Of a stretch of DNA of 21,525 nt, positions 469-21,525 are shown piece after piece. Location of the stretch: IMG/VR virus record IMGVR_UViG_3300030101_002191, positions 1-21,525 of that record; one strand, given 5' to 3'. Within the stretch, counting starts at the first letter, position 1. Each line of letters opens with the position of its first letter. The notes beneath the pieces are model-generated. The model did no database searches, was not told the origin of the DNA, and saw only the letters and a list, made by a program, of their open reading frames with translations. The stretch is from a virus. The position numbers and the translations under genes were made by a program.

Positions 469-478
469 TGATGGTTGA

Positions 479-1274: not shown

Positions 1275-1276
1275 GA

Positions 1277-1477
1277 TTAGATCTCCTTGACTTTAGTCCA
1301 GTGCTTGAGGGTGATGGAGCGGCGTTCGGTGAGGACGGGGATCATCGTGTCCTCGATGTACTTGTCTGAGACGGGACGGTGGAAGCGGTAGACTTTGTTG
1401 GACTCACTGAGTGCGTACAGTGCGGTCTTGTCTTTCTTACCTCGGCGTAGGGTCTTGATCGATATCTGGCGTGGCAT
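1277..1477 (-). CDS. Small basic hypothetical protein, 66 aa, first gene of the leftward operon
   Basis: The protein is Lys/Arg-rich, starting MPRQISIKTLRRGKKDK, with no cysteines and no membrane segment. It could bind nucleic acid, but no motif such as helix-turn-helix is clear. An in-frame ATG at 1546 would lengthen it by 23 residues. The ATG at 1477 is preferred because AAGGAGATACGCC precedes it at ideal spacing, matching the ribosome sites of the next genes. It is the promoter-proximal gene of the minus-strand operon, and its stop codon is two bases from the start of the membrane protein gene. The function is not recognised. Confidence 0.6.
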   Translation of the reverse strand: MPRQISIKTLRRGKKDKTALYALSESNKVYRFHRPVSDKYIEDTMIPVLTERRSITLKHWTKVKEI

Positions 1478-1782: not shown

Positions 1783-2277
1783 ATGTTAGACGACGACACA
1801 CTTTCTCATACTGAGTTCCAAGCTCATGCACCATATATGGGCTTAAGCATCAGTTCTCTTACTGTTCAGCAAGAAAAGCTGGTCATGCTCGTTGCTTCAG
1901 GAATGTCTGTTGCAGCAGCAGGTCGTGCAGCAGGATACGCATGTGCGCAATCAGCTAATGTCGCTATTAACTCCGAAAAGTGCCAAAAAGCGCTTAACTA
2001 CTTTCGAGAGCAGTATCGAGAGAAAGTCGAGTTCACGGTTGCCAATGCCCACTCCATGTATATGGAGGCATACACTTCTTCGGTAAATGCTACCGAAATG
2101 AAAAACACCACAGATAGCTTGGTCAAGCTACATGGTCTGGTACAGCCGGATAACACCACACAAGTAAATGTTCAGGTAAACGCATCTGCGAAACAGCTGG
2201 AGCGCTTGTCTGATGAAGAACTAGTAAAGCTGGTTGGAAAGGACGATAACTACTTGGAGCCCGTCGTTGGAGGTTGA
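1783..2277 (+). CDS. Terminase small subunit (candidate), 164 aa
   Basis: It likely recognises phage DNA and regulates the packaging motor. A helix-turn-helix-like region at about residues 40-70 (VAAAGRAAGYA, then a helix with NVAINSEKCQKAL) matches the N-terminal DNA-binding domain of many small terminases. Further on, a phrase like LVKLHGLVQPDN followed by a Val/Asn strand is common in this family before the C-terminal segment. It overlaps the large subunit by 11 bases, the usual gene pair. Start choice is uncertain: ATG 1783 and GTG 1762 are in frame and neither has a strong ribosome site; the GTG adds seven residues. Identity rests mainly on position, size and the HTH-like region. Confidence 0.75.
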   Translation: MLDDDTLSHTEFQAHAPYMGLSISSLTVQQEKLVMLVASGMSVAAAGRAAGYACAQSANVAINSEKCQKALNYFREQYREKVEFTVANAHSMYMEAYTSSVNATEMKNTTDSLVKLHGLVQPDNTTQVNVQVNASAKQLERLSDEELVKLVGKDDNYLEPVVGG

Positions 2278-3922
2278 AAAGCGAGAGTGCCGAGTATGTA
2301 AAACGTTACAGCCAGAAACACTGTACGCATCGACCATGAGCCATGAATGTGTCTATTGCACAGCCAAACGGCAAGACGCATTACCGATTCCAAAAGAGAA
2401 AGAAAGCGCAACACCACTCGAAGAGGAGACGACCCTTGAACAAAAAGCTAGGGCTGAACTGGCGTTACGTATACTCACCAGAAAAAGGTTGCTACCGTTT
2501 GTCGAACGTTTTAACCCCGATTACAACGCTGGTTGGGTCCATAAAGACATCTGTCGTAGGTTGGAGCAATTCAGCCGTGACGTGGATGAAAAGAAAAGTC
2601 CGAGACTTATGCTCTTTATGCCGCCTCGACATGGTAAGAGTACGCTTGCGTCGATTGCGTTCCCGGCTTGGCATCTGGGTCGCCACCCGAATCACGAGTT
2701 TATATCTTGTTCGTACTCAGGCTCGCTTGCGATGGGCTTTAGTCGTAAAGTCCGTTCGTTACTACGCGACCCTTCATATAAGACGGCGTTTAAAACGCGC
2801 CTTGATCCGGATTCGCAAAGCGCTGAAGCGTGGCTGACCACAAACGGTGGTGGCTATGTAGCGGCGGGTGTAGGCGGCGGTATTACAGGTAAAGGTGCGC
2901 ATGTTCTGGTTATCGATGATCCGGTAAAAAACCGAGAGGATGCGGAAAGCCCAAATAACCGTGAAGCAAATTGGGATTGGTATACGTCGACAGCATACAC
3001 ACGACTAGCCCCCGGGGGTGGCGTGCTTGTTATTTTGACGCGTTGGCATGATGACGATCTGGCAGGGAAGCTACTAAACGCTGCACAGGAAGGTGGTGAT
3101 GAGTGGACTGTCGTTAAATACCCCGCTATTGCCGAAGAAAACGAAGAGTTTCGGGGTCACGGCGAAGCACTTCATCCAGAGAGATATGATGTCGAAGCGT
3201 TGCAACGGATACAGCGTGCGGTAGGCCCGCGCGATTGGTCTGCGCTGTATCAGCAGAATCCGGTTGCTGACGATGGCGACTATTTCTCACGCGACATGAT
3301 TCAGTATTTTGACCCAGAAGATGTTGATCTGGATCGTATGAAGTTCTATTGCGCGTGGGACTTGGCAATTGGTAAGAAGGATCGGAACGACTATTCGGTT
3401 GGCATGGTCGTTGGCATCGACGAAATGGAACATATATTTGTAGTTGATGTAGTGCGCGGTCGTTTTGATGGTTTTGAGCTGGTCGAACAGATACTCGATA
3501 TGTATGAAACATGGCGTCCGTCTATCGTCGGTATCGAGAAAGGCCACATAGAGATGGCACTTGGACCGTTCCTAGAAAAACGGGTAAGAGAACGCGGTCT
3601 ATATGAAGCGTATTTCAAAGATCTGAAAACTGGGCGGCGAGATAAAGAAGCCCGCGCCAGAGCTATTCAGGGTAGGATGCAACAGGGAATGGTGCACTTC
3701 CCTAAAAACGAAGTATTCACAGGGCCATTAATTGCAGAACTACTACGTTTTCCGAACGGAGTCCATGACGATCAGGTCGATGCTTTGGCATGGATAGGTC
3801 TTATGATGACGGAGTTCAATGTCTTTACGGCACCAGTAATAAGAGAGCCATCTTGGAGAGACAGGCTTAATCACATGCTAAAGGGATCGGAGACTAGGTC
3901 ACGATCCGCAATGAGTGCGTAA
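2267..3922 (+). CDS. terL: Terminase large subunit, ATPase and nuclease, 551 aa
   Basis: This is the motor that pumps DNA into the prohead and cuts it. Visible motifs: a Walker A-like PPRHGKST at residues 119-126; Walker B VLVIDDP at 213-219 with D217/D218; and an RNase H-like nuclease with D365 (in AWD), E424 (in GIEKG) and D501-D502 (in HDDQVDA). Length is typical. The start is TTG 2267, preceded by GGAG at 2256-2259 with a 7-base spacer; a farther TTG at 2234 lacks a ribosome site, and the first in-frame ATG (2336) would cut off an N-terminal Cys cluster. That cluster is C8-x2-C11-x16-C28-x2-C31, a zinc-ribbon-like addition not usual in TerL. The start overlaps terS, and the stop adjoins the portal start. 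Confidence 0.93.
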   Translation: MEVEKRECRVCKTLQPETLYASTMSHECVYCTAKRQDALPIPKEKESATPLEEETTLEQKARAELALRILTRKRLLPFVERFNPDYNAGWVHKDICRRLEQFSRDVDEKKSPRLMLFMPPRHGKSTLASIAFPAWHLGRHPNHEFISCSYSGSLAMGFSRKVRSLLRDPSYKTAFKTRLDPDSQSAEAWLTTNGGGYVAAGVGGGITGKGAHVLVIDDPVKNREDAESPNNREANWDWYTSTAYTRLAPGGGVLVILTRWHDDDLAGKLLNAAQEGGDEWTVVKYPAIAEENEEFRGHGEALHPERYDVEALQRIQRAVGPRDWSALYQQNPVADDGDYFSRDMIQYFDPEDVDLDRMKFYCAWDLAIGKKDRNDYSVGMVVGIDEMEHIFVVDVVRGRFDGFELVEQILDMYETWRPSIVGIEKGHIEMALGPFLEKRVRERGLYEAYFKDLKTGRRDKEARARAIQGRMQQGMVHFPKNEVFTGPLIAELLRFPNGVHDDQVDALAWIGLMMTEFNVFTAPVIREPSWRDRLNHMLKGSETRSRSAMSA

Positions 3923-3923
3923 T

Positions 3924-6071
3924 ATGGCATATCAAAAAACAGGATCAAAATTAACTTCTGCTGAGCAGCAAGAAGTTGCGTCAAAGCAGTGGGACAGATA
4001 TACACGCGCTCGTGACAATGGCCATCTTGAATATGTAGATATGGCCAAAAAATGTGATGCTTTTTATCGCGGTGACCAGTGGGACGAAACTGATGTAGCA
4101 GCTCTGGATGCCGAGGGAAGACCCGCTCTTACTATTAATACGGTTCTGCCAACGGTAAATACTGTATTAGGTGAGCAGTCCACGCGTCGAGCGGACGTGC
4201 GTTTTAAACCCCGCCGTGGTGGTGACGAAGAAGTCGCGCATACGTTGACCAAGTTGTACATGCAGATTGCTGACAACAACAAGCTCGACTGGGTAGAGCA
4301 GCAGGTCTTTAGTGACGGTTTGATCCTAGATGGACGCGGCTACTTTGATGTAAGAATGGACTTTAGCGATCACGTTGAAGGTGAAGTACGAATTATCGCA
4401 AAAGATCCGTTAGATATTCTCATTGACCCTGATGCCAAAGACTCTGACCCAGAGACTTGGAACGAGGTCTTTGAAACCAAGTGGATGACACTTGATGAGA
4501 TAGAAGAGCTGTACGGCAAGAAGAAAGCCGAAGAGCTCCGCTTTATTGCTGAGAACGGCAATGGGTATGGACGAGATTCGATTGAGTATGAGGAAAACCG
4601 TTTTGGAGATCTCGACTCAACAGACGATTATCTGGGGGCAGGTATACCGGGAGACGACGAGTATCGTAACGTTAGAGCGCTGCGTGTTATAGAAAGACAG
4701 CACAAACGTATGACTCGTGTTATGTGTTTTGTAGATCCAGAAACTGGTGATCAGCGCGACGTTCCCGAACCATGGTCGGAAGCTAAGGCGAAAAAATTTG
4801 CCAAGAAGTACGGCTTAAATGTAATAAGAAAAGTAAAACGAAAAGTCAGATGGACAGTTACTTGTGATCGGGTTGTGTTACATGATGACTGGTCACCTTA
4901 CGACGGTTTCACTGTTGTTCCATTCTTTGCATATTTCAGGCGCGGTAGACCATTTGGCATGGTGCGTAATCTGCTGTCGCCGCAAGAACAGTTAAACAAG
5001 ATAGCTAGTCAAGAACTGCACATTGTAAATACCACGGCCAACAGCGGCTGGATGGTAGAGAGCGGTTCGCTGGTTGGTATGTCAGCAGACGATCTAGAAG
5101 AACACGGAGCCGAGACCGGGCTTGTGCTTGAGTATAACCGTGGTTCCTCCCCGCCCGTGAAGATTCAGCCGAATCAGATTCCTACTGGTTTGGACAGAAT
5201 AAGCCAGAAAGCGGCGCTAAATATAAAATCTATTAGCGGCATTAATGATTCTATGCTGGGCACTGACAGTGCCGAAGTATCCGGTGTTGCGATTCAGGCC
5301 AAGCAGAATCGTGGCGCGATCATGATCCAAGTGCCATTGGATAATTTACGTAAGACACGACAATATCTTGCTGAGCACATACTTAAGTTGTTGCAGACGT
5401 TCTACACCGAACGGCGAGTAATAATGGTCACTGACGAAGAAGATCCGCTCAAGCCGCGCGAGCCAATGGTCCTGAACGAGATGACCCCCGAAGGGCGCAT
5501 CATTAACGACCTTACGCTTGGTGAGTATGATGTAGTTATTGCATCCGCACCTGCTCGTGACTCGTTCGACGAAGTACAGTTTGCTGAAGCCCTTAACTTG
5601 CGTCAGGTTGGGGTCGCTATTCCTGACGATGCCATCATTGAGTACTCGCATCTTTCAAAGAAGGAGGAGCTGGCAAAACGCATTCGCATGTTGACTGGTC
5701 AGGAACCACCAACTCCAGAGCAGGCAGAAGTTATGGCCATGCAGCAACAGATGGCTATTCAGAAGTTGCAGCTTGAGATTGCTCAGCTTGAAGCGGATGT
5801 GAGAAAGACACAGTCTGATGCGGCGGTCAACATTGCCAAGGTACAAGATATGACTGATGTTCAGCCACAAATGCGCTTGACTGAACTGCAAACGCAGATT
5901 GATACTAAGCGTGAGGAGTTGCAATTGCGCCGCGATCTTGCTGCTGTAACTAATGAGACTCGCATGGGTCAAGCAGAAACGAATGCTGCAACCAGAATTG
6001 CTGCAACGGCTATGCAGACTGCTGCAAAGCGGCCAAAGCAGACAGATATACCTAACTTTCGTAACCCCTAA
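3924..6071 (+). CDS. Portal protein, P22-like, 715 aa
   Basis: It forms the dodecameric ring at one capsid vertex, through which DNA enters and leaves. The N-terminal two thirds contain family-typical phrases, such as LTINTVLPTVNTVLGEQ near residue 65 and a FSDGLILDGRGYF segment near residue 130. A helical stem and wing region follows, with YFRRGRPFGMVRNLLSPQ. The last roughly 130 residues are Gln/Glu/Ala-rich and strongly coiled-coil, resembling the long helical barrel of P22-type portals. The length is close to the P22 portal (about 725 aa). The ATG at 3924 lies one base after the terL stop. An in-frame GTG at 3915 would add three residues but has no ribosome site. Position directly after terL supports the call. 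Confidence 0.9.
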   Translation: MAYQKTGSKLTSAEQQEVASKQWDRYTRARDNGHLEYVDMAKKCDAFYRGDQWDETDVAALDAEGRPALTINTVLPTVNTVLGEQSTRRADVRFKPRRGGDEEVAHTLTKLYMQIADNNKLDWVEQQVFSDGLILDGRGYFDVRMDFSDHVEGEVRIIAKDPLDILIDPDAKDSDPETWNEVFETKWMTLDEIEELYGKKKAEELRFIAENGNGYGRDSIEYEENRFGDLDSTDDYLGAGIPGDDEYRNVRALRVIERQHKRMTRVMCFVDPETGDQRDVPEPWSEAKAKKFAKKYGLNVIRKVKRKVRWTVTCDRVVLHDDWSPYDGFTVVPFFAYFRRGRPFGMVRNLLSPQEQLNKIASQELHIVNTTANSGWMVESGSLVGMSADDLEEHGAETGLVLEYNRGSSPPVKIQPNQIPTGLDRISQKAALNIKSISGINDSMLGTDSAEVSGVAIQAKQNRGAIMIQVPLDNLRKTRQYLAEHILKLLQTFYTERRVIMVTDEEDPLKPREPMVLNEMTPEGRIINDLTLGEYDVVIASAPARDSFDEVQFAEALNLRQVGVAIPDDAIIEYSHLSKKEELAKRIRMLTGQEPPTPEQAEVMAMQQQMAIQKLQLEIAQLEADVRKTQSDAAVNIAKVQDMTDVQPQMRLTELQTQIDTKREELQLRRDLAAVTNETRMGQAETNAATRIAATAMQTAAKRPKQTDIPNFRNP

Positions 6072-7453: not shown

Positions 7454-7708
7454 ATGGCTAAAGGTGTACCGCATTATTTTCGGGATGGCAAAAAACATTC
7501 AGGTGGCACTCATAAGATGCCTGATGGTACTGTACATTCTGGTAAATCTCATGGGGCCTCTTCCAAGAAGCTCTTTCATTTAAATGAGCTGTCCAAGACA
7601 GCAAAGGAGAAAGCTATGAAAGGTATGAAAAAACCCCCCGCACCGAAAAAGAAAGCGGCACCGAAGAAGAAAAAGAAAGCGGCACCGAGAAGAAGTGGAG
7701 GTTACTGA
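7454..7708 (+). CDS. Basic small phage protein with histone-H1-like tail, 84 aa
   Basis: The N-terminal half has a compact His/Gly pattern (PHYFRDGKKHSGGTHKMPDG, then FHLNELSKTAKEKA), a pattern I recognise from unnamed phage structural-region proteins. The C-terminal 26 residues are almost only Lys, Pro and Ala (PAPKKKAAPKKKKKAAP), like the tails of histone H1 and bacterial H1-like proteins. At DNA level this tail contains an 18-base direct repeat at 7647-7664 and 7671-7688. The frame is open back to 7340, but ATG 7454 has AAGGG nine bases upstream and follows the previous stop by one base, so the short form is chosen. A DNA-binding or DNA-condensing role is inferred. Confidence 0.78.
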   Translation: MAKGVPHYFRDGKKHSGGTHKMPDGTVHSGKSHGASSKKLFHLNELSKTAKEKAMKGMKKPPAPKKKAAPKKKKKAAPRRSGGY

Positions 7709-8831: not shown

Positions 8832-9989
8832 ATGGCTTTAACTAATTTTGCGGCGCTGACTTCCAACCAGCTAACCGCATGGAGTAGGGATTTCTGGCGA
8901 GTCGCTAGAAATGCGTCTTTCATCAATCAGTTTGCAGGATCTGGCTCTAACGCCATGGTTCAGCGAATTACTGAGCTCACCAAGTCAGAGAAAGGTACTA
9001 AAGCGGTACTGACCTTGCTCGCAGACATGACCGGAGATGGTATTACTGGTGACAACACTCTGGAAGGTAATGAAGAAGCTCTGCGAAGCTACGACCTTAC
9101 CATCGAGCTCGATCAGCTGCGTTTCGCGAACCGAATCGCTGGCCGATTGGCCGACCAGAAATCAGTTGTCAACTTCCGTGAGACTTCTCGCGACATGTTG
9201 GCTTATGCCATGGCTGACCGTATGGATCAGTTGGCATTTTTGACGCTGTCTGGTGTGGCATATACCCACAAGACGAACGGTGCCTTGCGTACTACGTCAT
9301 CGTCTACGGGCCACGAGTTGGTAGATCTTGAGTTTGCCTCAGATGTATCAGCACCCACTTCGTCCCGGCATTTGCGCGTAGATGTTTCCGGTAGTACTTC
9401 AACACTGGAAGCTGGCGACACAACTGCAGTTGCTGCAACTGACAAGATCTCATATCGCGATATTGTTAATCTGAAGGCTTTTGCTAAAGATCAATACATT
9501 CGCGGCATGCGTGGTCAGGGTAACCAAGAGCTGTTCCACATGTTCGTTACTCCGCAACAGATGGCTGACCTGAAGCTCGATTCAGACTTCTTGGCCAACG
9601 TCCGTAACGCGGGTGTTCGTGGACCAAACAACGAGCTGTTTGCTGGTACCGGCTCGCTGATGGTTGACGGCGTAATGATCCACGAGTTCCGACACGTCTT
9701 CAGTACTGAAGGTGCTACTGCCGGTGCTTCTGGTAATGCTGGCGCAGCTGGCTACAAGTGGGGTGCTAACGCAGATGTTAACGGAGCTCGCGCTCTGTTC
9801 TGTGGTGCACAGGCACTTGCAATGGCTGACATCGGTCTCCCAGAGATCGTTGAAGATACTTTCGATTACGAGAACCAAGCTGGTATCTCTATCGGTAAGA
9901 TCTTCGGTCTGCGTAAGCCTAAGTACAACAGTGATGTAACTAGTAACGTGCAGGACTTCGGCGTTATCTGTCTCGACACTGCTCAGTAA
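8832..9989 (+). CDS. Major capsid protein, N4 gp56-like, 385 aa
   Basis: The shell-forming protein, presumably with the HK97 fold. The N-terminus (ALTNFAALTSNQLTAWSRDFW) and the central sequence LTIELDQLRFANRIAGRLADQ, followed by RDMLAYAMADRMDQLAFLTLSG, match the pattern of the N4 gp56-type capsid family (DUF4043 / Phage_capsid_3), and the length fits. The second half contains TPQQMADLKLD and a Gly/Ala-rich insertion (about residues 295-312), then ALFCGAQALAMADIG, typical of this family's C-terminal domain. No protease domain is fused. It is preceded by a structured leader and perfect Shine-Dalgarno, and followed by a strong intrinsic terminator, so it forms its own high-expression unit. Family assignment is by eye. 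Confidence 0.9.
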   Translation: MALTNFAALTSNQLTAWSRDFWRVARNASFINQFAGSGSNAMVQRITELTKSEKGTKAVLTLLADMTGDGITGDNTLEGNEEALRSYDLTIELDQLRFANRIAGRLADQKSVVNFRETSRDMLAYAMADRMDQLAFLTLSGVAYTHKTNGALRTTSSSTGHELVDLEFASDVSAPTSSRHLRVDVSGSTSTLEAGDTTAVAATDKISYRDIVNLKAFAKDQYIRGMRGQGNQELFHMFVTPQQMADLKLDSDFLANVRNAGVRGPNNELFAGTGSLMVDGVMIHEFRHVFSTEGATAGASGNAGAAGYKWGANADVNGARALFCGAQALAMADIGLPEIVEDTFDYENQAGISIGKIFGLRKPKYNSDVTSNVQDFGVICLDTAQ

Positions 9990-10426: not shown

Positions 10427-11116
10427 ATGGCGGTTACAGTCCAAAGTGTTATAGATAGAGTGCAGGCTACTCTGCAAGATACCTCTGGTATCCGTTGGTC
10501 ATCTACAAACGAGCTGGTTTTGTGGGTTAACGACTCACAGCGTGAAATAGCTTTAATAAAACCGGATGCAACCGCTACTAATACTACAGTTACCCTAGCG
10601 ACAGGTACGAAACAAACAATTCCTGCAGCGGGTAATCGTCTGTTGCGCGTCATTAGGAATATGTCTGCGGCTAGTGGTGGTACTGGCAGACGAACTATTC
10701 GTCTAGTAGGCCGAGAAATACTAGATGCACAGACGCAAGATTGGCATGACCCTGCAGTTACGGGCGATGCAGCACATGGACCTGTAGTGAAACACTACAT
10801 GTATGACGAGGCTGACCCCCGTAACTATTACGTATACCCGGGTGTTAGTGGTAACGCTTACATAGAAATCGTGTACTCCGCCAATCCAGCGACAGTAACG
10901 TTATCTGACAACCTAGCTGTACCCGACATTTACGCTAATGCTGTTATGAATTACGTGCTTTTCATGGCTTACATGAAAGAAGCAGAAGTGGCAGACAATG
11001 CTCAGCGGGCCGCTAATCACTATCAGTTGTTTGTGACTAGTGTAGCGGGCAAAGATCAGATAGATGCTTTACGAACACCTAACGTCACACTTTCCGTAAA
11101 TAGAGCGGTGGCTTAA
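10427..11116 (+). CDS. Head-tail connector-like protein (DUF6682-like), 229 aa
   Basis: The opening (VTVQSVIDRVQATLQDTSGIRW, then ELVLWVNDSQREIALIKPDA) is a pattern I associate with phage proteins annotated as DUF6682, located between capsid and tail-tube genes. The middle has beta segments and YYVYPGVSGNAYIEIVYSA. The C-terminal third is helical (YANAVMNYVLFMAYMKEAE, then ANHYQLF), as in head-tail adaptors. The probable role is binding the portal to complete the connector. The ATG follows the previous stop by nine bases, and its own stop directly precedes the next ATG. The family number is recalled, not checked. Confidence 0.75.
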   Translation: MAVTVQSVIDRVQATLQDTSGIRWSSTNELVLWVNDSQREIALIKPDATATNTTVTLATGTKQTIPAAGNRLLRVIRNMSAASGGTGRRTIRLVGREILDAQTQDWHDPAVTGDAAHGPVVKHYMYDEADPRNYYVYPGVSGNAYIEIVYSANPATVTLSDNLAVPDIYANAVMNYVLFMAYMKEAEVADNAQRAANHYQLFVTSVAGKDQIDALRTPNVTLSVNRAVA

Positions 11117-11809
11117 ATGGCGGTAACCTTATACGAAGATCTGCTACCTGAAATCATTCCTATGGTTCCCGGTTGCCCTGACTCTTTAATAGAGACTTAT
11201 GTCCGCTCTGCTCTTATAGAACTGTGCGAAAAAGCCGGTGTTTATCAGCGAGAGCTAGACCCAGTTACGACGGTAGCTAATCTCTACGAGTACGATTTAG
11301 AGCCGCCAGATAACACCGTTGTAGACAAGATATTGTGGGTAGTGCACAAAGGCAAAGACCTTGAGGCGATTACAACTGGCTTGTTAGAGCGTCGTAAACC
11401 TAAGTGGCGAGATTCTGACAGAACAGGTGAGCCAGAATACTTTATAAAAGCTAGTCAGAAGACATTCTTTCTAGTGCCTGTGCCTAATGAAACAATCGTT
11501 TCTAGTACTGTATTGCGAGTTCAGTTGAAGCCAACGATTACGTCAGTTTCTTGTGACACTGAAGTAATGACTGATTACAGAGATACGATAGTCAACGGCG
11601 CATTACTTAGACTACTGCGTCTGCCCAGTAAAGAATGGACAGATTATGCAGGAGCAGGAGTATATGGTCAGCTATTTGCGCAAGGTGTTCTTGATGCTGA
11701 ACGCAAATCTAGCGGTATAGATATGCCAGTAGCAAGGAAGGTCCGGTACGGAGGAGTTCACCGGTCGCACAGTCTTTCTAGGAAGAAGTATGGACGAGAA
11801 ATTGCATGA
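11117..11809 (+). CDS. Head-tail adaptor / tail tubular A-like protein, 230 aa
   Basis: The protein starts with a helical region (LYEDLLPEIIPMVPGCPDSL, then YVRSALIELCEKAGVYQREL), followed by a beta-rich middle (ILWVVHKGKDLEAI, then PEYFIKASQKTFFLVPVPNE) and a helical C-terminal part (TIVNGALLRLLRLPSKEWT) ending in a basic tail. This helix-beta-helix plan is typical of portal-binding adaptors such as T7 gp11 and P22 gp4-type proteins. The opening helices also resemble small connector domains. It begins right after the upstream stop and overlaps the next gene by 20 bases. The function follows from architecture and position; the exact family is not recognised. Confidence 0.72.
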   Translation: MAVTLYEDLLPEIIPMVPGCPDSLIETYVRSALIELCEKAGVYQRELDPVTTVANLYEYDLEPPDNTVVDKILWVVHKGKDLEAITTGLLERRKPKWRDSDRTGEPEYFIKASQKTFFLVPVPNETIVSSTVLRVQLKPTITSVSCDTEVMTDYRDTIVNGALLRLLRLPSKEWTDYAGAGVYGQLFAQGVLDAERKSSGIDMPVARKVRYGGVHRSHSLSRKKYGREIA

Positions 11810-12218
11810 GCCAGTATTTGCTGACATACGCGAAAATTGGTCTTGGGTTAGGCCGGGTTTGGAAGAGATTATTGAGGAAGATCCGTTCTTGGATGTCCTC
11901 CCCGAAGACGTATACACGGCGTGCAAAACAGAAAATGCACAGCTTTGGGTTACGGATGCTGGGTTTGTTGTGACAACAGGACTAACAGATCCGTATACAA
12001 ACAAACGAACCCTGCTTATTTGGTTTGCTTGGGCGAAGCAAAAAGGCAGGAACATAGCTGCCGAGTGCGTTGGTTTTTTTGAACAAGCTGCTTATGACGC
12101 AGGTTTTAGTTTTTTAGAAGTTCGCACTAGACATGAGCAGTTAGGTAGTTACATAGAAAGTTCAGTTGGTTGGGAGCGGGAAACCGTCGTTTACAGAAGA
12201 GATATACGAAATGGGTAG
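11790..12218 (+). CDS. GNAT-like internal virion protein, positional equivalent of T7 gp13, 142 aa
   Basis: The pattern of strands and helices ends with FLEVRTRHEQLGSYIESSVGW followed by a final strand (ETVVYRRDI). That is how the GNAT acetyltransferase fold ends: a residue near the start of a helix, then a 'GF/GW' turn. No clear acetyl-CoA pyrophosphate loop (Q/RxxGxG/A) is visible, so catalysis is doubtful. T7 gp13 (138 aa) has the same kind of ending, is nearly the same length and lies at the same place before the internal virion proteins. I therefore infer a structural internal-virion role. ATG 11790 has AGGAAG upstream and overlaps the adaptor gene by 20 bases. Confidence 0.68.
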   Translation: MDEKLHEPVFADIRENWSWVRPGLEEIIEEDPFLDVLPEDVYTACKTENAQLWVTDAGFVVTTGLTDPYTNKRTLLIWFAWAKQKGRNIAAECVGFFEQAAYDAGFSFLEVRTRHEQLGSYIESSVGWERETVVYRRDIRNG

Positions 12219-12864
12219 CAAACCAAAAGCATCGGACTACCAACCAAGCGAAGCTGACAAGGCTAGTGCGTCGGTTGCGTTGGCTGAGTATCAGTACTTT
12301 AAGCAGAAGTATGACCCGTTGCTGCAGAAGATGCGTGACAAGTCTATGGTAGAAGACCCCGCATCACGTCTCAGGGGTCGCGCTAGTGCAGACGTTATGC
12401 AGGCACTTACTTCTGATCCTAACTATCGCAATACTCAGTTAAGTGATTTACCCAGTGATATGAACAAGGCGTTGCAAGGACAGCAGCAGCAAGCGACTGC
12501 TGCTGGCAAAGGTATACAGAACACGATGCGAACCAACGTACTCGGCACTGCTCGTGGCCAAGCGGCTGATGCGCAGACTGGTATGGCTCAAGCAGCACGA
12601 CTCGGTACTTCTAAGGCTTTAGCTAGCGCAGCGGCTAAGCAGCAAGAAAGAGATGCAAGGTTGGGTGCGGCAAGCCAGTTGATATTCGCAGCTGGTGCAC
12701 AAGGCATGGATAATTTAGGAAGTGGCGGGAGTTTCTTTAGGCCTATGGGTGCAGACGGTAAGCCTGTTACTGGATTTAAGAATAGGTATAACTATTCAAT
12801 AGGCGCTCCACCTCCAGAACCTGAAGAGCCTGAATATGTTGGGCCAACACTAAGGTATACATAG
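12211..12864 (+). CDS. Ala/Gln-rich virion-associated protein (hypothetical), 217 aa
   Basis: The function is not recognised. Residues 1-60 are polar and helical. Residues 70-150 are Gln/Ala-rich with little hydrophobic character (QGQQQQATAAGKG, then repeated short Ala helices). Next comes a short hydrophobic stretch (LIFAAGAQGMDNLGSGGSFF), and the tail is Pro-rich (PPPEPEEPEY). Such Ala/Gln-rich helical proteins are common among phage internal virion proteins. An upstream start at 12166 is in frame but would lie inside the GNAT-like gene without a better ribosome site. ATG 12211 overlaps that gene's end (ATGGGTAG) and has AGAAGAGA upstream. The stop overlaps the next GTG by one base. Confidence 0.7.
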   Translation: MGSKPKASDYQPSEADKASASVALAEYQYFKQKYDPLLQKMRDKSMVEDPASRLRGRASADVMQALTSDPNYRNTQLSDLPSDMNKALQGQQQQATAAGKGIQNTMRTNVLGTARGQAADAQTGMAQAARLGTSKALASAAAKQQERDARLGAASQLIFAAGAQGMDNLGSGGSFFRPMGADGKPVTGFKNRYNYSIGAPPPEPEEPEYVGPTLRYT

Positions 12865-13556
12865 TGATAAACATCGGCAATATAGATCCTGACCTTATAG
12901 AAAGGTATAGGGCAGGTGATCTAAACATGGGTAACGCAACTGTTAATACAACTGGTGCAGCAAACGGTGGTGGTGGAGGTGCTGGAACAGGAGGCGGTGC
13001 AGGCCGTGGAGGAGCAGGCGCGAATAGCGGAACAAATTTACCCGTAGTCACTGACCCCGAAAAGACTTTTGCAGACATTACCCGTCAGGAGTACTTGGAT
13101 TACATAGCAAACTATCGAGACTTTGAAGAGGGTCTGATAAATCAAGCGACAACGGATACCAGTTTGATAGATCAAGCGCGAGCTGATAGAGAGAGTGCAT
13201 CAGCGCTTACTGCTGGTATTGCTGCACGTAATAGAAGTCGATATGGAGCAGCATTGACACCTGTACAGCGACAGCAACAGCAGCGCCGGTTGCAGCTTGG
13301 CAATACGCTTGGCGGTATTCAGGCAGTAAGTGACGCCAAGATTGCTCAAAACGAAGCCAATACACGGTTGTTAGCGGATCTGATCAATATCGGACAAGGC
13401 GTAAACAGGTCTAGCCAAAGTCAGTTGGGTCAATCTGCTGCAAACAAGGTACAGCTAGATAATGCCTACAGACAGGCGCAAGCAAGTTCTAGAGCTCAGA
13501 CAATGAACACAATCGGAACGGCGGGGTCTCTGGCTATTCTGGCGTTCGCACTTTAG
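12864..13556 (+). CDS. Gly-rich virion-associated protein with hydrophobic C-terminus, 230 aa
   Basis: The start is GTG 12864, overlapping the previous stop by one base (TAGTG); ATG 12927 is an alternative. After about 30 residues comes a Gly/Ala/Asn-rich flexible stretch (residues 33-56). A helical Gln/Ala/Arg-rich central region follows (RQQQQRRLQLGNTLGGIQA). The last 18 residues are hydrophobic (TIGTAGSLAILAFAL), consistent with a C-terminal membrane-inserting or hydrophobic contact helix. T7 gp14 (196 aa) is a small membrane-inserting ejection protein in the equivalent gene position, and I infer a similar role. There is no clear sequence identity by eye. Confidence 0.7.
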   Translation: MINIGNIDPDLIERYRAGDLNMGNATVNTTGAANGGGGGAGTGGGAGRGGAGANSGTNLPVVTDPEKTFADITRQEYLDYIANYRDFEEGLINQATTDTSLIDQARADRESASALTAGIAARNRSRYGAALTPVQRQQQQRRLQLGNTLGGIQAVSDAKIAQNEANTRLLADLINIGQGVNRSSQSQLGQSAANKVQLDNAYRQAQASSRAQTMNTIGTAGSLAILAFAL

Positions 13557-13562
13557 GGGTAG

Positions 13563-15806
13563 ATGATGGCACAGGGAATTGCAGAAGGTGCACTTGGAGC
13601 GTTACAGCTGTTCCAGCAAATGTCTGGGCAACGCATAGACCGTCAACAAGCTCGTGACGAATTAGCATACCAAAAAGAATATGACGCACGTCGCTTAGGC
13701 CAGATAGATAGAGAAATGGGCCAGCGAGAGAGAGCTTTAAGTATTGATGAAGATAATACCGAAATTCGGAGAGGCGAACTAAGTATAGCTGAAGCGGCAG
13801 CAGCACGGGATCAATACAATTTTGATGCTGGTCTTTCGCAGGAAGCTGCACAAGGGATATATGCTTTTGGTTTACAAGAAGGTTTTATCGATCCTATCAC
13901 TAATCGTCGTACACCAGAGTTTGATGCAGCTTTACGAGCAGGGGACACTAGAGCCAGTAATTTTTTAAGTCAAATACAAGGAAGACACAAAGAGCGATAT
14001 GCTGAAGGCTTTGTACCTGACACATTTGATTTTAAATCTAATCCCGGTTCTGTCATATCCAGTAGCAGTGCTGGGGGTGTGGTAACCCTAAACGCTACAA
14101 GTGAAGCAAATGATCCAATAGTACCTCTGGATGAAAATACTTTTTTTACTGGTATTGAAAACGACATCATAGATTTAGTTTCGGACGCTACCGGAGATAA
14201 AGCATTAAGGCTCGTTGCCCAGAAACAGGTTGCTGGCAAGGCATTGACTAGAGCAGAGGCGCGACAAGCAGACGAAGAATCGCAGGCGCTCGTTAAGCAG
14301 ACTATCGCTAGAGAAATCTATGCAACTAGCGGTATCCAAGCTGGTAGAGAGTTTGAAGCAATGGTTGCTTCAGCAAAAACCCCTGAAGAAAGACGCAAAC
14401 TTTATAAGGCGCTTGCAGATGACTTTGGAATAGAGCTGCCAGAGTTTACGTCTGAAGATCAGCAACCACCTGAACTTATTGGGCAAGACACAATGTTCCA
14501 AGAACCGGCCCCTCAAGTCTTTTTGCCGGGGGAAAGACGCACCGCGACACTTCTTGCTCCATCTGAGGTTGAAGAAAACGAAACGCGACGTAGAGTAGTA
14601 GCCTTAGACTCTAGAATCGAGCGACTTACCGCTGAAGCAGATTCTGTAACAAACTTAAAAAGAAGGAGGAATTTAGAAGAAAAAATTTCTGAAAAAACTA
14701 AAGAAAGGGATGATTTGGTGCGTAGCGCCAATAAAAAACAATTTGAAAAAGTATCGACAGATCTCGAAAAAGCAAAAGAATCGCTTGCAGGCGCAAGACC
14801 CGGTCGCAAATCGTATTGGGAAGGAGAAGTACAAAGACTGGAAAATCAAGTTGCTGAGTTTACAAAAGCAGGTGTCGATACTCCTGTTACTGAAACAGAC
14901 GGTTGGAAACAGCTAGAAGCAGATGTTCTGACTAGAATAGAAGGTCTGTCCCCTCAAGAAGTTGATGATCTTGTTGACCGAGGTTTGCTGACATTTACAC
15001 CGGAAACGACAGCAGCGTTACGGCAACGTGCTCTAGAGTTAGAAATTAATTCCCTTTCTGATATTAAGAAACTACCTACCAGAGAAGAGCTAGCGTTTAG
15101 AGCGATCACAAGCGTGTTTGCAGAAGATCCGACTGCCCGCGAAAACTCCAGAAGAGAAATAGATAATCTTGTTGAAGCTGGTTTCGCGGGGATGGATAGA
15201 TATGAAATGGAGTCCGCACAGACTAATCGGATAAACGCTGAGACTTCACGCATGAACGCACAGACAAGCGCAGCTGCGGAAGCACGGCAAGCAAATCCAG
15301 ATTTAGCCTCTAATGCAATAGAGTTTAGTCAGGAACTTTCTGAAAATATGTTTCAGGCTCTCGAAGGTGAAGATGCGCAAGGCGCTAGATCGGCCATGGC
15401 AAGATACTTTGGCCCAGCTGTTACAGAGCTTGAGAGATATATGCCCCGCAGGGGAAATCCGACTGGAGATCCAAATGCCCTAAGAATTGCTTATCAAGGA
15501 ATTAATGCAGCTGTCAGTAGGGCGTTCTCACAGGTCGCGGCGGATGGACTTGGAAATACTTTGGTAGAGGATTTTGTTGGGTTGTTTACGTTTAGTCCTT
15601 CTGGAGAGCCCGCAGATTTTGATTTAGCGAATGTAAGCATTAATCCGGCAGGCAATAAACTTAGTTATCTTGGCCCCGATGGTACAGAGCAAGGAGAGCC
15701 GGTGTCAGTAGGAGCGCTAAGAAATCAATTCCCAGATGAGGCAGTAGAGCTCTTGGTCAAAGCAGCAAAAGCTAATGTCGCGCTTGCAAGAGCTGGTAGT
15801 CAGTAG
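13563..15806 (+). CDS. Large internal virion protein, T7 gp15-like in size and position, 747 aa
   Basis: A long, mostly helical polar protein. The N-terminal 110 residues are Gln/Arg/Glu-rich coiled coil (QRIDRQQARDELAYQKEYDA and on). A mixed region follows. Residues about 330-440 hold a strongly charged coiled coil (LDSRIERLTAEADSVTNLK, KRRNLEEKISEKTKERDDL). The last 150 residues look folded. I see no enzymatic motif and no membrane segment. Length and position match T7 gp15 (747 aa), which forms part of the DNA-ejection tube, but that is analogy, not visible homology. It starts at a double ATG after AGGGG, seven bases past the previous stop, and is followed within nine bases by the giant gene. 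Confidence 0.75.
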   Translation: MMAQGIAEGALGALQLFQQMSGQRIDRQQARDELAYQKEYDARRLGQIDREMGQRERALSIDEDNTEIRRGELSIAEAAAARDQYNFDAGLSQEAAQGIYAFGLQEGFIDPITNRRTPEFDAALRAGDTRASNFLSQIQGRHKERYAEGFVPDTFDFKSNPGSVISSSSAGGVVTLNATSEANDPIVPLDENTFFTGIENDIIDLVSDATGDKALRLVAQKQVAGKALTRAEARQADEESQALVKQTIAREIYATSGIQAGREFEAMVASAKTPEERRKLYKALADDFGIELPEFTSEDQQPPELIGQDTMFQEPAPQVFLPGERRTATLLAPSEVEENETRRRVVALDSRIERLTAEADSVTNLKRRRNLEEKISEKTKERDDLVRSANKKQFEKVSTDLEKAKESLAGARPGRKSYWEGEVQRLENQVAEFTKAGVDTPVTETDGWKQLEADVLTRIEGLSPQEVDDLVDRGLLTFTPETTAALRQRALELEINSLSDIKKLPTREELAFRAITSVFAEDPTARENSRREIDNLVEAGFAGMDRYEMESAQTNRINAETSRMNAQTSAAAEARQANPDLASNAIEFSQELSENMFQALEGEDAQGARSAMARYFGPAVTELERYMPRRGNPTGDPNALRIAYQGINAAVSRAFSQVAADGLGNTLVEDFVGLFTFSPSGEPADFDLANVSINPAGNKLSYLGPDGTEQGEPVSVGALRNQFPDEAVELLVKAAKANVALARAGSQ

Positions 15807-15814: not shown

Positions 15815-18800
15815 GTGTCTACCGAAGCGTTTAAACAGTTCCTAGAAGCGACTGAAGAAGGTGCTATTCGAGAAGCCCGTCCTCGTATCGCGCCTGAAAT
15901 AACAGAGCCTTTAGCCCCTACTAATCTTACCGAAACATTTTCTCGTGGCCTGCAGTCAGGGGCGCAAGGACTACGCACTGACGTTGAGTATTTTAAGGCG
16001 TTAGGTAACACGCTTGTTGGCGACGAGGAAGCTGCGTCTAGGGCGATAGAACAAGCTAGATATAGCGAAGAGCTTTCTGCGCCGACATTAGCTGGCATTC
16101 AAACTTTTGAAGAGTTTCTGGATCAGCCCACTTTTAGTGGATTTCTTACTCAAGCAACTAGATCTGTAGGGCAGCTGGCCCCTTCTGTAGTTACTACTAT
16201 TGCTGGTGCTGGTATCGGAGGTGTTACAGCCGCAGTAGGAAGGGGGACTTTGTCTGTAGCAGGACGCGCCGCTGCAAAACGACTAGCAACTGATTCATTA
16301 CAAAGAACTGCAAAGGGTGTCGCTACTCCTGATGAGCGGCGTCTTGCCGATGAGATGTACAAATACTTTAGGAGGGGCGCTGTAACAGGTGCTTTTGGTT
16401 CTGAATATGTACCGCTATCTGGTAGTAACTTGTCGGAAGCCCTTGATGCCGGAAAGGAGTTAGACAGAGGGCAAGCGTTGCGTGCTGCGACTGTAGGTGT
16501 CCCTCAAGCCGCGATTGGTGTTGGCGGCGAAATAGCTTTGCTTAGGTTAGTTGGCAACGTTGCCGCTAAACGAGCTGTTACTGATAAAGCTGGCGGAGGT
16601 ATGTTTAAAACGCTGGCCGGTGATATTAGCCGTTCCGCGCTAAAAGGTGGCGCAATAGAAGGCAGTACTGAACTAATTCAGGAAGGAATTAGCGTAGCTA
16701 ACAGGTTTGACCTAGACGATGATTTTACTGCTGAAGAGGCAAGGTTACGTTTAGCGGAAGCAGCGTTTGCTGGTTTCTTGGGTGGTAAAGCAGCAGGTGC
16801 TGCAGGCGGAACAGTTGGTTCTGTGTTTAGACAGGCAAGAGAGCGACTGTCTCAAGCACAACAGCAACGTGTCGACGATCAAATAAACACTGAGCAATTT
16901 GGTGAAACTGATAGCGGTGTAACTACAGCAGAGCCAGAAGCTGATTTAGATGCTCAGCTTGCTGCCATTCACGATCCTAATAGTACTAAGAAAGCCGTTT
17001 GGGTTGCTGGTGAGCAAGGCAGGCAAAGATTCCCCGAAGATGGTCGATACGAGCAAGACGGCAAAGTCTTCTACGCACGTTACATACCCGGTAAAGGCAC
17101 CATCGTTACTAAAGAAGAAGCGCTTGCTGACGAGGTTGTTAAATCAGGCGCTGACGATGCATCTCTTGCAGCAGCGTTAGGGTACACAACTACAAAACCT
17201 GAAGGTGCTGAGCTTGTAGTACAGGCGCTAGACCCCCAAGGTAATGTTGTTTCAGAAGAATTAACTACTGCTGCAAATCTTGAGGCCGCAAAAAATAACG
17301 CTGAGCAACTATCCCCTATTTTTCAGTATCGAGTAGTAGCGTTAGATCAGGCTCTAGAACGTCGAAAGCAAAAATTAGAAGCAGAACAAGCTGGCCAAAC
17401 AGAGTTTGATTTTGGTGACACCGATCCAGAGGTTGATGAGTCTGAACTCCGCGCCATGGAGTTTGATGACTATGATTACGATGAGGATGACGTAAATGTT
17501 CCTCAGTCATTTGTTGAGGATATTGGCGAACAAGATTCTTTTCTGACTTTTGAAGAGCTTAGAACTCGTGAGTTACAAGAAGCAGGTCTTATAGAATCAG
17601 AAGACGCTGGTCCTACGCCACTTGAGCGGCAACAAGATGCAGTAGAGTCAGCAGAACTTGACCGCGATGACATGCTGCTTGTTGGTAGATACAAGCCTCG
17701 TGTACAGAGAGAACTATTCGAGACTGAAAAGAAAGCCCGGGAAGAGTTTATTGCTGAGATTGGGAACGATAGTCGAATTGAATCATTTACCGAGGCTTTG
17801 CTTAAAGCAGCAGTCAGAGAGCAACGTGCTACCCCCGGTGCGGTTATAGATATAGTACTTAGGGACGGCGTATATGAAGTAAGAAAAACATTTCCCGGCG
17901 AAGAAACATTTATCTTCAACAAAGGGAAAAAACAAGAACGATTACCTATAAAACAGTTTTTAGCCAGAGCGATACAGTACGCCCAACGCGCCAAACCAGA
18001 GAGGCGTAATGTACGTTTGGTAAAACCTGATGGAAGTTCTGTAGAGATTAGCCTTTTTGATCTAATGCAGGCAGGTAGGAGTTTATTACGAACTAGAGAA
18101 AATACTGAGTTTGTGGGTGGGGCTGGCACATTAAATACTAATAGAGCGGCTCTTTCTGAAATCTTAACTGAATTAGCTATATACAAAGAAGATGTAGAGT
18201 TTAACGTTGAGTTAAGCAATCTTTTAGGTGACGAAGTCGGCGGTGTATTGCGATATGACATTACCGACACAAACGGAGTTAGTTTACTTAATCGCAATAA
18301 TTATGATTACACGGTTATACCTAAGTCTGAAGCAAAGGAAGGTCAAAAAAGAATTAACAAATATAGGTATAACCGCTTCAAAGGTGAAAATTCTGTTGTC
18401 TACACTCAAAAGTCTTCATCTATTTCCGGTCTGGGCACCAAGAAAGAAAAAGTTGGCAAACAAAAGACTAAAAATGTAACCATTAATTTTCTCCTAGGTC
18501 GTGGAGTACGAGGTTCAGAAGCTACCTCTACTGGTGATTTTGATCCTGACCAAGAAAAAATAGTTGAGGAAACTACAAGGTTTACTGACCCAGAAACAGG
18601 AGCAAGAGTTACTCAAAAAGAAAGGATTGATCCTGACGAAGATGTAGAGAAGGACATAGCTCAAAGAGCTGCTGATCCTGACATGCAAACTTCTGAAATA
18701 GGTTTAGATGAACCATCTCCCGAAGAACGAGTTAGAGCAAACGAGCCTTTGCGCGGGGCTGGACCAATTTCTCCCAGTACTGACACGGGTAGAGGGCCAA

Positions 18801-21525
18801 CACCCCCATCTTGGAAAGACAGCAGACTTACTAAAGCTGTCGTCGACGGATTGCTTGCCTTAATTAATCTGGATCAACGACCCCAGATCATAAGCATGGC
18901 GGAGTTATCTAATTCTACGGACGAAGAAGTTCGCATTTTGTACGTTCGCGAACCTGCTGTTGCCTCAAGCATTATTGCACTACGCAACAAGCTAAATGAC
19001 AGTAAGACTATGTATGGTCTTTATGACCGTTCTACTAACGTAATAGTGGTTAAAGAGACTGGTAACGAAGTTTTTGATTCGCTTTTAATAGCGCATGAAG
19101 TAGGGCATGCATTGTTTAGACAAGAGCAAACTCGCGCTATGCGTAACCCTGCTTTACGTAAGCGACTCGAAGCATCTTACAAACGAAGCAAGTTTTATAA
19201 AAATTATAAGCAGCTAGGTGGAAGCTATGAACTTGGCTTTGAAGAGTGGTATGCAGATCAGGTTGCTAAGTGGGCTACTAAGAAGTTTATAGATCGCCAA
19301 GCCAAGAATATGGTAGAGCGACACTTTAAAGAATTAGTTAATAAGATTAAGGCTTTGTTCAAGAGCTTTACGTCTGAGTCGTTCCAAAGAAGGTTTGCAG
19401 GTATAACTACCAAGAATTTTGTTAGCCCTACTTTCAATCAATATATGGAACATCTCACCGTGCGTAATGCTAAGTATGCGCGGCGGCTGGAAATCAAACG
19501 GCGTATGGGTGAGGCACCGGCTGTGTACACAGGTGCTACGCCTGAAGCACAGCCTGCGCCTACAGGACGTGGGCAGGCAAGGGCCGAGTCGCCTATTTTG
19601 TCAGGCATGTCTCAAGAGCAATTAGAAAATCTACAGCTTCCCGGCTACGGAATAATTCCATATGAGTCTTATGGTGCGATTGCTGACACGCAAAGCGTTG
19701 CTAACCCACAGAATGCTACTGAAGATGCGCAGGCAGAAGCGCCTTCTCCCACTATGGAGCAGATACAAAGCGAAGCTACTGAGCAGCCTGCTGCACAACC
19801 TGCACAACCTGCACAACCTGCACAACCTGCAGCCACACCGCAACGGCAGAGAGCAACTAGAGCTGCACAACAGCGATCCAAGAAAAGACGCGATCCGGCG
19901 GCTGAACAAGAGCAAGCTGTTAAGAACGTAACAGAAGTAGCTCAATCACATGCTGCTGATGCTAATACCTTGACAGTGCAACAAACTTTGTTTGATGACC
20001 TGAACGAAGATACTTCAAAGATACCGGGCTATAACTCTATTAAGAGGGCATACGAAAGCAATCTAGTAAAAGATATTGTTGGTGCTATTCGCAGCGTGCT
20101 GCTTCCGGCTGACAATATATTGCGAAAAGTTGCAGGTGATGAGATTGCCGATCAGTTCTATGTGCGATCTCAAGACTTAGTTTCTCGTGGAAAACTGGGT
20201 TTTTTGAGAGCAGTTAATACAACAGTTGGACGCTGGAAGAACAGGTTTGAAAAAGAAATAGGTAGTTTAGAAGACCCTGAAATACAGGCTGGGTTTGAAG
20301 AAGCATTTAGTGGTAAACCCACTGCAGAACTAAAAGGTAAGGCGAGAGCTATACGAGAGTATTTAGAAGCGTTTTACGATGAGTATATTGATAGGAGTAA
20401 CACTGATATTGGTAAGCGTCCCGACTACTTTCCTATATCGTTAAACCTGTTTGAGATTACACAACGCTCAGAAGAATTTAAACAGTTGTTAATGCGTGAA
20501 GATCCCACGCTTAAAGAAGAAGATGTAGATAACATAATTAAGTATTTTGTAGAGCTAACACAAAGCAGCGCTACACAACCCGCTATAAATTCTACAGCTC
20601 CGTCTGCTGCAGTTGAGCAGATGATTAGGCTTACAAAAAATGTAGATAGATCAGCACTGCGCGATTTCGTAAATCCGCCTGATCTTGCATTTATTGATTA
20701 CATGCGCCATGTAATTAAGCGCGTTGAGTTTAATAGAGCAACAGGTGGTCCTGATGCATTGAACGCTCGTTTAGCAAAGCTCGATCCGGAAAATAGAGTT
20801 GTTGCAGAAGAAATTATTAGAACTTACCTTGGCTATCAAAAAGCACCACTCAGTCCGTGGATGCGAAAATTAAACAGCTGGGGCCAGTTTTTACAGTTCA
20901 TAACAATTCTACCTTTTGCCACGATTGCATCACTGCCTGATTTAGCTGGGCCAATAATTAACCATAAAGATTTTAGTGGTCTTTGGGCAGGGATAAAGCA
21001 AGTTGGCGCAATGGTTAAAAACAAACAAGAAGCGCAACAGTTAGCCAGAGACATAGGTGTCGTAACTAGTGAAACCGTTGCTAATGCATGGGTGACTCAA
21101 GCCGAACAAGACTTTATGGACCCAACTGTACGCAAGTTGTCTGACGGTTACTTTAAATTAATAGGTCTTGATTGGTTTACTAAGTTTAGCCGAGAGTTTG
21201 CTTCTGGTATGGGAGTGCAGTTTTTGTTGAAACACGCCCGTAATGAAGACGGTAATCCAAATTCTGCGCGTTATCTGCAAGAGTTAGGTGTTACCCCAGA
21301 AGAAATTTTAGCGTGGAACGAGAACAAAAGTTTTGACACCCCAGAAGGCGAAAAAGTAAGAGATGCATTAGCAAGATTCGTAGAGTCGTCGATTATGCGA
21401 CCAAATGCTGCAGAGCGTCCTGTATGGGCATCTGACCCAAGATGGGCGTTGGTATGGCAGTTGAAAGGCTATTTCTATAGTTACTACAAAACGATTGTAG
21501 GTGGTGTACTACGCGAAGGTAAAAT
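15815..21525 (+). CDS. Giant multidomain internal virion / polyvalent protein with metalloprotease motif, partial (1903+ codons)
   Basis: The frame is open without a stop from GTG 15815 to the window edge and is incomplete at its 3' end. The GTG has GAGG (15806-15809) five bases upstream; a nearby ATG (15813) is out of frame and stops quickly. In order: a helical start (1-110); Gly/Ala glycine-zipper-like segments (about 120-145 and 318-340) with EGSTELIQE at 282-290; an acidic linker (about 530-566); a zincin motif HEVGH at 1094-1098 with EEWYAD at 1143-1148 as probable third-ligand region; (AQP)4 at 1327-1338 and a basic linker (about 1343-1362); a hydrophobic segment (about 1691-1711); and a terminal region with RPVWASDPRW resembling domains of large phage polyvalent proteins. 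Likely ejected with DNA, in the place of T7 gp16. No lytic transglycosylase motif seen. Confidence 0.85.
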   Translation, partial: MSTEAFKQFLEATEEGAIREARPRIAPEITEPLAPTNLTETFSRGLQSGAQGLRTDVEYFKALGNTLVGDEEAASRAIEQARYSEELSAPTLAGIQTFEEFLDQPTFSGFLTQATRSVGQLAPSVVTTIAGAGIGGVTAAVGRGTLSVAGRAAAKRLATDSLQRTAKGVATPDERRLADEMYKYFRRGAVTGAFGSEYVPLSGSNLSEALDAGKELDRGQALRAATVGVPQAAIGVGGEIALLRLVGNVAAKRAVTDKAGGGMFKTLAGDISRSALKGGAIEGSTELIQEGISVANRFDLDDDFTAEEARLRLAEAAFAGFLGGKAAGAAGGTVGSVFRQARERLSQAQQQRVDDQINTEQFGETDSGVTTAEPEADLDAQLAAIHDPNSTKKAVWVAGEQGRQRFPEDGRYEQDGKVFYARYIPGKGTIVTKEEALADEVVKSGADDASLAAALGYTTTKPEGAELVVQALDPQGNVVSEELTTAANLEAAKNNAEQLSPIFQYRVVALDQALERRKQKLEAEQAGQTEFDFGDTDPEVDESELRAMEFDDYDYDEDDVNVPQSFVEDIGEQDSFLTFEELRTRELQEAGLIESEDAGPTPLERQQDAVESAELDRDDMLLVGRYKPRVQRELFETEKKAREEFIAEIGNDSRIESFTEALLKAAVREQRATPGAVIDIVLRDGVYEVRKTFPGEETFIFNKGKKQERLPIKQFLARAIQYAQRAKPERRNVRLVKPDGSSVEISLFDLMQAGRSLLRTRENTEFVGGAGTLNTNRAALSEILTELAIYKEDVEFNVELSNLLGDEVGGVLRYDITDTNGVSLLNRNNYDYTVIPKSEAKEGQKRINKYRYNRFKGENSVVYTQKSSSISGLGTKKEKVGKQKTKNVTINFLLGRGVRGSEATSTGDFDPDQEKIVEETTRFTDPETGARVTQKERIDPDEDVEKDIAQRAADPDMQTSEIGLDEPSPEERVRANEPLRGAGPISPSTDTGRGPTPPSWKDSRLTKAVVDGLLALINLDQRPQIISMAELSNSTDEEVRILYVREPAVASSIIALRNKLNDSKTMYGLYDRSTNVIVVKETGNEVFDSLLIAHEVGHALFRQEQTRAMRNPALRKRLEASYKRSKFYKNYKQLGGSYELGFEEWYADQVAKWATKKFIDRQAKNMVERHFKELVNKIKALFKSFTSESFQRRFAGITTKNFVSPTFNQYMEHLTVRNAKYARRLEIKRRMGEAPAVYTGATPEAQPAPTGRGQARAESPILSGMSQEQLENLQLPGYGIIPYESYGAIADTQSVANPQNATEDAQAEAPSPTMEQIQSEATEQPAAQPAQPAQPAQPAATPQRQRATRAAQQRSKKRRDPAAEQEQAVKNVTEVAQSHAADANTLTVQQTLFDDLNEDTSKIPGYNSIKRAYESNLVKDIVGAIRSVLLPADNILRKVAGDEIADQFYVRSQDLVSRGKLGFLRAVNTTVGRWKNRFEKEIGSLEDPEIQAGFEEAFSGKPTAELKGKARAIREYLEAFYDEYIDRSNTDIGKRPDYFPISLNLFEITQRSEEFKQLLMREDPTLKEEDVDNIIKYFVELTQSSATQPAINSTAPSAAVEQMIRLTKNVDRSALRDFVNPPDLAFIDYMRHVIKRVEFNRATGGPDALNARLAKLDPENRVVAEEIIRTYLGYQKAPLSPWMRKLNSWGQFLQFITILPFATIASLPDLAGPIINHKDFSGLWAGIKQVGAMVKNKQEAQQLARDIGVVTSETVANAWVTQAEQDFMDPTVRKLSDGYFKLIGLDWFTKFSREFASGMGVQFLLKHARNEDGNPNSARYLQELGVTPEEILAWNENKSFDTPEGEKVRDALARFVESSIMRPNAAERPVWASDPRWALVWQLKGYFYSYYKTIVGGVLREGK
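19793..19828 (+). repeat. Tandem 9-bp repeat (GCACAACCT, four copies)
   Basis: Four exact copies of GCACAACCT lie in frame in the giant gene and encode Ala-Gln-Pro four times. They sit in a Pro/Ala/Gln linker between the metalloprotease part and the C-terminal part. Perfect copies suggest recent slippage, so copy number may vary between relatives. Confidence 0.9.

Follow-up and report, generated by a model that had tools for sequence, protein, structure and literature searches.

A giant zincin-bearing protein, probably the largest ejection protein of an uncultured LUZ24/KPP25-like podovirus

What a phage would do with a single protein of more than 200 kDa is the question raised by a 21,525-nucleotide stretch of viral DNA (the window; bases 1-21525 of the 26,663-base IMG/VR viral record IMGVR_UViG_3300030101_002191), in which one reading frame is still open where the window ends. 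A sequence-only reading had placed its product among the large polyvalent proteins, multidomain phage proteins that are injected with DNA. This class assignment proves essentially right and can now be given a more specific role: on a polyvalent plan, the protein probably serves an uncultured LUZ24/KPP25-like podovirus as its largest ejection (internal virion) protein.

The giant gene and its relatives

The giant frame (15815..21523, on the plus strand, like all features below unless stated) starts with GTG and runs for 1903 codons without a stop up to the window end, encoding 210.6 kDa to that point, which bears out the initial description of a GTG-started open frame of more than 200 kDa. The GTG is preceded by GAGG at a distance of 5 nt, and close relatives have the identical GTG start and identical first residues. 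The frame runs off the window not for any biological reason but because a 10-N scaffold gap begins there (record bases 21526-21535, directly past the window end). Beyond the gap the gene continues in a different frame for 134 codons, with a stop after ...DRTLGNRLLPIYSQL*. This C-terminus is the same as that of full-length relatives; the whole protein is therefore about 2,040 residues long, and alignment with relatives puts the loss in the gap at about one or two codons.

That the gene crosses a scaffold gap could speak for a frame open by chance, or for an assembly artefact. Against this, differences from relatives fall mainly at the third position of codons (150/135/305 at positions 1/2/3 relative to locus L006, and 501/324/983 relative to L010), many full-length relatives contain no N, and the C-terminus past the gap matches theirs. 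Given the third-position bias and the retention of the full frame in dozens of loci, the frame is not a chance one; the likelihood of such an explanation is negligible and it was ruled out. The giant gene is real and conserved.

Searching IMG/VR with a profile of the C-terminal half gave 152 loci; 80 of these were retained, and full-length relatives are present in more than 60 of the IMG/VR loci fetched. The reading frames taken from these loci encode 1,735-2,560 aa, and HExxH occurs in every one. More distant relatives belong to Aeromonas phage phiA008, Pseudomonas phages KPP25/R18 and Roseobacter phage CRP-810; a search seeded with phiA008 alone returned no relatives. Within the group, the N-terminal segment, two alpha/beta domains (A and B), the protease and the C-terminal half are each found in 48 of 48 relatives, with the strongest conservation in the helical C-terminal half. 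In one locus (L008:7900-8165) the N-terminal match lies in a different frame from the rest of the ORF, probably through a contig indel or else a real frame change. Distant relatives also occur in two Zoogloeaceae metagenome bins (L094 and L095), where they may be prophages or binned phage contigs.

Domain layout and the zinc protease

The protein has a mosaic layout, and all the elements noticed in the sequence-only reading (glycine-zipper-like clusters, an acidic linker, a protease motif, an AQP/basic linker and a helical C-terminal half) could be located. The N-terminal segment (aa 34-362, 15914..16900) is all-helical in the structural model and contains two hydrophobic Gly/Ala-rich stretches (aa 124-142 and 233-251). 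Small-xxx-small clusters lie at aa 132-144 and 316-335, and the whole protein has four hydrophobic 19-mers, starting at aa 124, 233, 1692 and 1920, which are candidates for membrane insertion. From its hydropathy, the N-terminal segment would be membrane-active.

Next come alpha/beta domain A (aa 375-528, 16937..17398; pLDDT mostly above 87), an acidic linker predicted to be disordered (aa 520-620, 17372..17674; 36% D+E), alpha/beta domain B (aa 618-762, 17666..18100; pLDDT mostly above 84), and a variable stretch up to about aa 1000. Domain A has no Pfam, PHROG or PDB match and database matching found no known relative of domain B, in agreement with the early remark that long middle stretches resemble nothing known; both domains are possible undescribed effector domains. 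Foldseek comparison of the N-terminal half with the PDB gave nothing at E<=0.001, and a second look with VIA gave only transporter-like helical matches of Z <=5.5, which are not interpretable. Searches of PDB sequences with a profile of either half returned nothing beyond short metalloprotease-like matches, none better than E 0.04. Weak Pfam hits to MCM_lid, KRE1, DUF697 and GAGA_bind were set aside as chance.

The protease domain (aa 1045-1190, 18947..19384) is a zincin-type metalloprotease of the Peptidase_M78/ImmA-IrrE-like kind. Its catalytic motif, HEVGH, was correctly noticed from the sequence and lies at aa 1094-1098 (19094..19108); Glu1144 (19244..19246, in FEEWYAD; E187 of the alignments) is a candidate third zinc ligand. 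The H, E, G and H of HE.GH and this downstream Glu are invariant in an alignment of 46 phage-contig relatives. Pfam PF06114 (Peptidase_M78) is matched by 31 of the 48 relatives (best 8.8e-7), with the match in L010 above the gathering score, and in the structural second look the region aligns with one zincin, a lethal-factor endopeptidase, in many of its PDB entries (Z 3.8-4.5). A lethal-factor-like zincin is the fold named by Iyer et al. for polyvalent proteases (PMC5512222). Because of the M78 matches, the invariant motif with its Glu and the lethal-factor-like fold, this is a genuine zincin domain, and it would be expected to have proteolytic activity.

The protease is followed by a linker that is first AQP-rich and then basic (aa 1225-1390, 19487..19984), with 44% A+Q+P over about aa 1225-1390. 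The linkers seen by the sequence-only reading are real, but they are not conserved: comparison of the 48 relatives found the acidic linker and the AQP linker in none of them, and the AQP-rich and basic stretch is missing from most relatives. Compared with L009-L011, the AQP linker of the window member is an insertion. Its AQP repeat is encoded by a 9-bp tandem repeat at 19791-19831. Further short tandem repeats lie at 11-44 (12 bp), 6278-6322 (12 bp) and 7645-7694 (24 bp), and all four periods are divisible by three. The helical core, with its likeness in predicted fold to ejectosome core proteins, spans approximately aa 1427-1882 (20093..21460), a region mapped from L010; a profile match to Pa223_053 of Bruynoghevirus supports it as well.

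Front domains are exchanged among the relatives. In three of them (L009, L088 and L091) the front holds a peptidoglycan-hydrolase domain matching phrog_873 endolysin (up to 7e-39), and the same motif opens L090, L092 and L093; the hydrolase at the front of L071 and L087 is of another type, matching phrog_27932 tail lysozyme (up to 3e-37). Two hydrolase types therefore occupy the same N-terminal spot in otherwise homologous giant proteins. The giant protein of phiA008 (L004:10009-16161, annotated hypothetical) opens with an SNase domain (PF00565, 7.9e-7). In CRP-810 the C-terminal half is a separate gene, gp34, beside gp35 (L003:7671-13721), which encodes 2,016 aa with two HExxH motifs and a region like ART-PolyVal (7e-5, under the family cut-off); gp34 and gp35 together divide this one plan between two genes. 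The window member has no swapped front domain, starting straight with the conserved segment, and Pfam and PHROG searches find no peptidoglycan-hydrolase domain in it.

The C-terminal half and its genomic setting

Sequence comparison connects the C-terminal half with virion proteins. It matches phrog_30152, "virion structural protein" (8.9e-22), and the KPP25 and R18 proteins (E 4e-27, 25% identity), both filed as "structural protein". Its profile aligns with that of Bruynoghevirus Pa223_053 over 569 columns (hhalign 97.9%, E 4.4e-13), and relatives of Pa223_053 carry virion structural or constituent protein annotations. The C-terminal half is thus homologous, on the evidence of these alignments, to a Bruynoghevirus structural protein. 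T7 gp16 (hhalign E 0.26) and LKA1 gp48 (profile comparison E 0.34) were not matched by sequence, neither value being significant. For the C-terminal domain of the N4 virion RNA polymerase (vRNAP), comparing single sequences and then profiles led to rejection of homology (profile-profile E 0.024 over 72 columns, not significant). These null matches double as a false-positive control for the hhalign method.

The fold evidence points the same way. While Foldseek of the C-terminal half against the PDB gave no match at E<=0.001, VIA-align 2 against 967 chains ranked phage ejectosome/core proteins in the first two places, with the next unrelated chain at Z 4.8. The best match, PhiM1 ejectosome 8vb2_A (4.4 A, 249 residues, chain 551-1190), has a Z of 8.6, which lies under the safe level for helical proteins, whose folds can reach such a Z by chance; phage E1004 core 9vvp_L follows at Z 6.5 over 254 residues. 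TM-scores in these comparisons are low over the long flexible chains, and the model of the C-terminal half is no better than moderate (pLDDT 66.6, pTM 0.54). In PhiM1 the matched region comes after the transglycosidase-like domain (268-528) of a tetrameric ejection protein (PMC11440229). Searching BFVD with the C-terminal half gave 38 matches at E<=1e-3, including the KPP25 structural protein, the LKA1 internal virion protein, Bordetella BB8 internal protein D and several "large polyvalent protein associated domain" proteins. Polyvalent-annotated and internal-virion-annotated proteins therefore share one neighbourhood. In predicted fold, the C-terminal half appears similar to ejectosome core proteins.

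The position of the gene is that of an ejection protein. Upstream are found, in order, a small terminase (weak), the terminase large subunit and portal (2234..6071; phrog_38, phrog_156), a scaffold candidate, the major capsid protein (8832..9989; phrog_334, 8.4e-83) and two adjacent paralogous SU10-type head-tail adaptor (tubeA) genes (10427-11116 and 11117-11809; PF24175 SU10_adaptor, 1.7e-34 and 1.2e-8). After the adaptors come three small genes, a 747-aa gene and the giant gene, and downstream of this a holin-like gene, an M15 peptidase that is probably the endolysin, and a tail-fibre-like gene. By comparison with the T7 gene order, this is the place of gp14-15-16. The 230-aa gene (12864..13556; phrog_596, 1.8e-4), with a glycine-rich front and a hydrophobic tail, is probably a small ejection protein in the gp14/gp7 position. 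The 747-aa gene that adjoins the giant gene (13563..15806; no database match) is, from gene order, probably a second ejection (or nozzle) protein in the position of T7 gp15. The 747-, 232- and 230-aa neighbours have no homologues in named phages. No recognisable nozzle (tubeB) gene lies in 11790-15806, where the proteins have only weak PHROG hits (phrog_611, phrog_596). At the other end of the window, six small ORFs lie opposite the structural genes (213-1834, minus strand), two of which were examined and have no PHROG match.

The capsid and portal are closest to those of KPP25/R18, phiA008 and Acidovorax phage AP1, the KPP25 capsid being 55% and its portal 39% identical to those of the window phage. 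The paired adaptor genes are reminiscent of the "dual tubeA" that Hardies et al. describe in Sulfitobacter phage PhiGT1; the same authors assign a large oceanic branch to the LUZ24-like lineage (PMC10386132).

Ejection protein or effector carrier

Close counterparts in named phages include KPP25 ORF088 and phiR18 (Kochitakasuvirus), which have a homologous C-terminal half, an upstream HExxH and the same place after the adaptors. Their N-terminal half is unrelated by sequence, however, and with HESMH in place of HEVGH their protease is too diverged for the profile used. phiA008 gp66 (2,050 aa) shares the protease and a C-terminal half that is 36% identical over its best part, along with a related portal and capsid, but its front half differs, with the SNase domain first. 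At 1,055 aa, Pa223_053 of Bruynoghevirus (LUZ24/PaP3/Pa223) is half the size, with a C-terminal half homologous by profile and no sign of a protease, as judged from the lack of a Pfam match.

T7 gp16 and PhiM1 TEP resemble the giant protein in gene position, in having an enzyme domain before the core and in carrying hydrophobic segments close to each end. In T7 gp16, a hydrolase end in the periplasm is combined with two membrane regions and a hub that binds DNA in the cytoplasm; P22 gp16, like the window member, lacks a peptidoglycan-hydrolase domain (PMC8954989). Compared with T7 gp16, the giant protein has a zinc protease in place of the transglycosylase, a much longer front and no sequence similarity. 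The N4 vRNAP follows the same plan of membrane-like N-terminus, middle module, zincin and large helical C-terminus (PMC12633501, PMC5512222), and with this protease-then-helical layout it is packaged uncleaved (PMC5512222), which speaks against cleavage in the giant protein. Since C-terminal homology to N4 was rejected, it is the layout alone that the two have in common. No polymerase family is among the Pfam, PHROG and NCBIfam matches of the giant protein.

As to the polyvalent class, the giant protein is a very large multidomain phage protein (about 2,040 aa, in the head/tail operon) that carries a zincin with HExxH and a downstream Glu, and its relatives display domain shuffling (two muralytic fronts, an SNase domain and an ART-like region). 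In these respects, including its position in the virion module, the original class assignment stands. By sequence, hmmscan of the window protein and its relatives against Pfam matched none of the LPD families, and a search for LPD38 gave no match, with its controls equally silent. Neighbours in BFVD nonetheless bear the LPD name.

Two other roles were weighed. The protein might be injected chiefly to deliver its protease and two middle domains against host proteins or defences, the C-terminal half serving as a packaging and ejection tag. This is how Iyer et al. read such proteins (PMC5512222), and it would suit a zincin kept without exception and the swapped enzyme domains of relatives, including the SNase and the ART-like region. 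It is nevertheless the C-terminal half and not the putative effectors that is most conserved, and domains A and B, present in 48/48 relatives and not swapped, suit a structural role better than that of arms-race effectors; we consider an effector carrier of this kind improbable. Far less probable again is a scaffold or processing protease that is not injected, its zincin acting on other head or tail proteins to mature them as the virion is assembled. An invariant zincin in the head/tail module would agree with this, but known prohead proteases do not resemble a 2,000-residue protein with membrane-like segments whose gene comes last ahead of the lysis genes, and both fold and homology indicate ejection proteins.

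The best reading is a gp16-position ejection protein on an N4-vRNAP-like plan, apparently without the polymerase. Several copies would be packaged inside the capsid above the portal, at the top of the ejectosome stack, and on infection the chains would thread out unfolded, before the DNA. The inner membrane may then be engaged by the N-terminal helices, rich in glycine, together with hydrophobic segments in the C-terminal half, with the helical core, as counterpart of gp16-C, forming a cytoplasmic or membrane hub around the DNA; such gp16-like membrane and hub roles are feasible in view of position, fold and hydropathy. Cleavage by the zinc protease, probably in cis and at the flanking unconserved linkers, would take place before the protein is packaged or once it has entered the cell, and would release the front part that contains both alpha/beta domains. 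Iyer et al. proposed both pre-packaging processing (P1 DdrB) and post-entry processing (PMC5512222). More broadly, gp16-type ejectosome cores might form a single family with polyvalent proteins such as this one, in which the polyvalent helical C-terminal half is the ejectosome core and the ever-present zincin frees the injected front domains (here the undescribed domains A and B) from the membrane-bound core after entry; this we advance tentatively, as a possibility rather than a likelihood.

A widespread group of uncultured phages thus encodes a candidate injected protein of about 2,000 residues, with an invariant protease and swapping front domains. Among the open-access papers searched, none had both "polyvalent protein" and "ejection protein"; if confirmed, the role proposed here would link the literatures on polyvalent proteins and podovirus ejectosomes, and that of the zincin would be directly testable in the cultured relatives KPP25 and phiA008.
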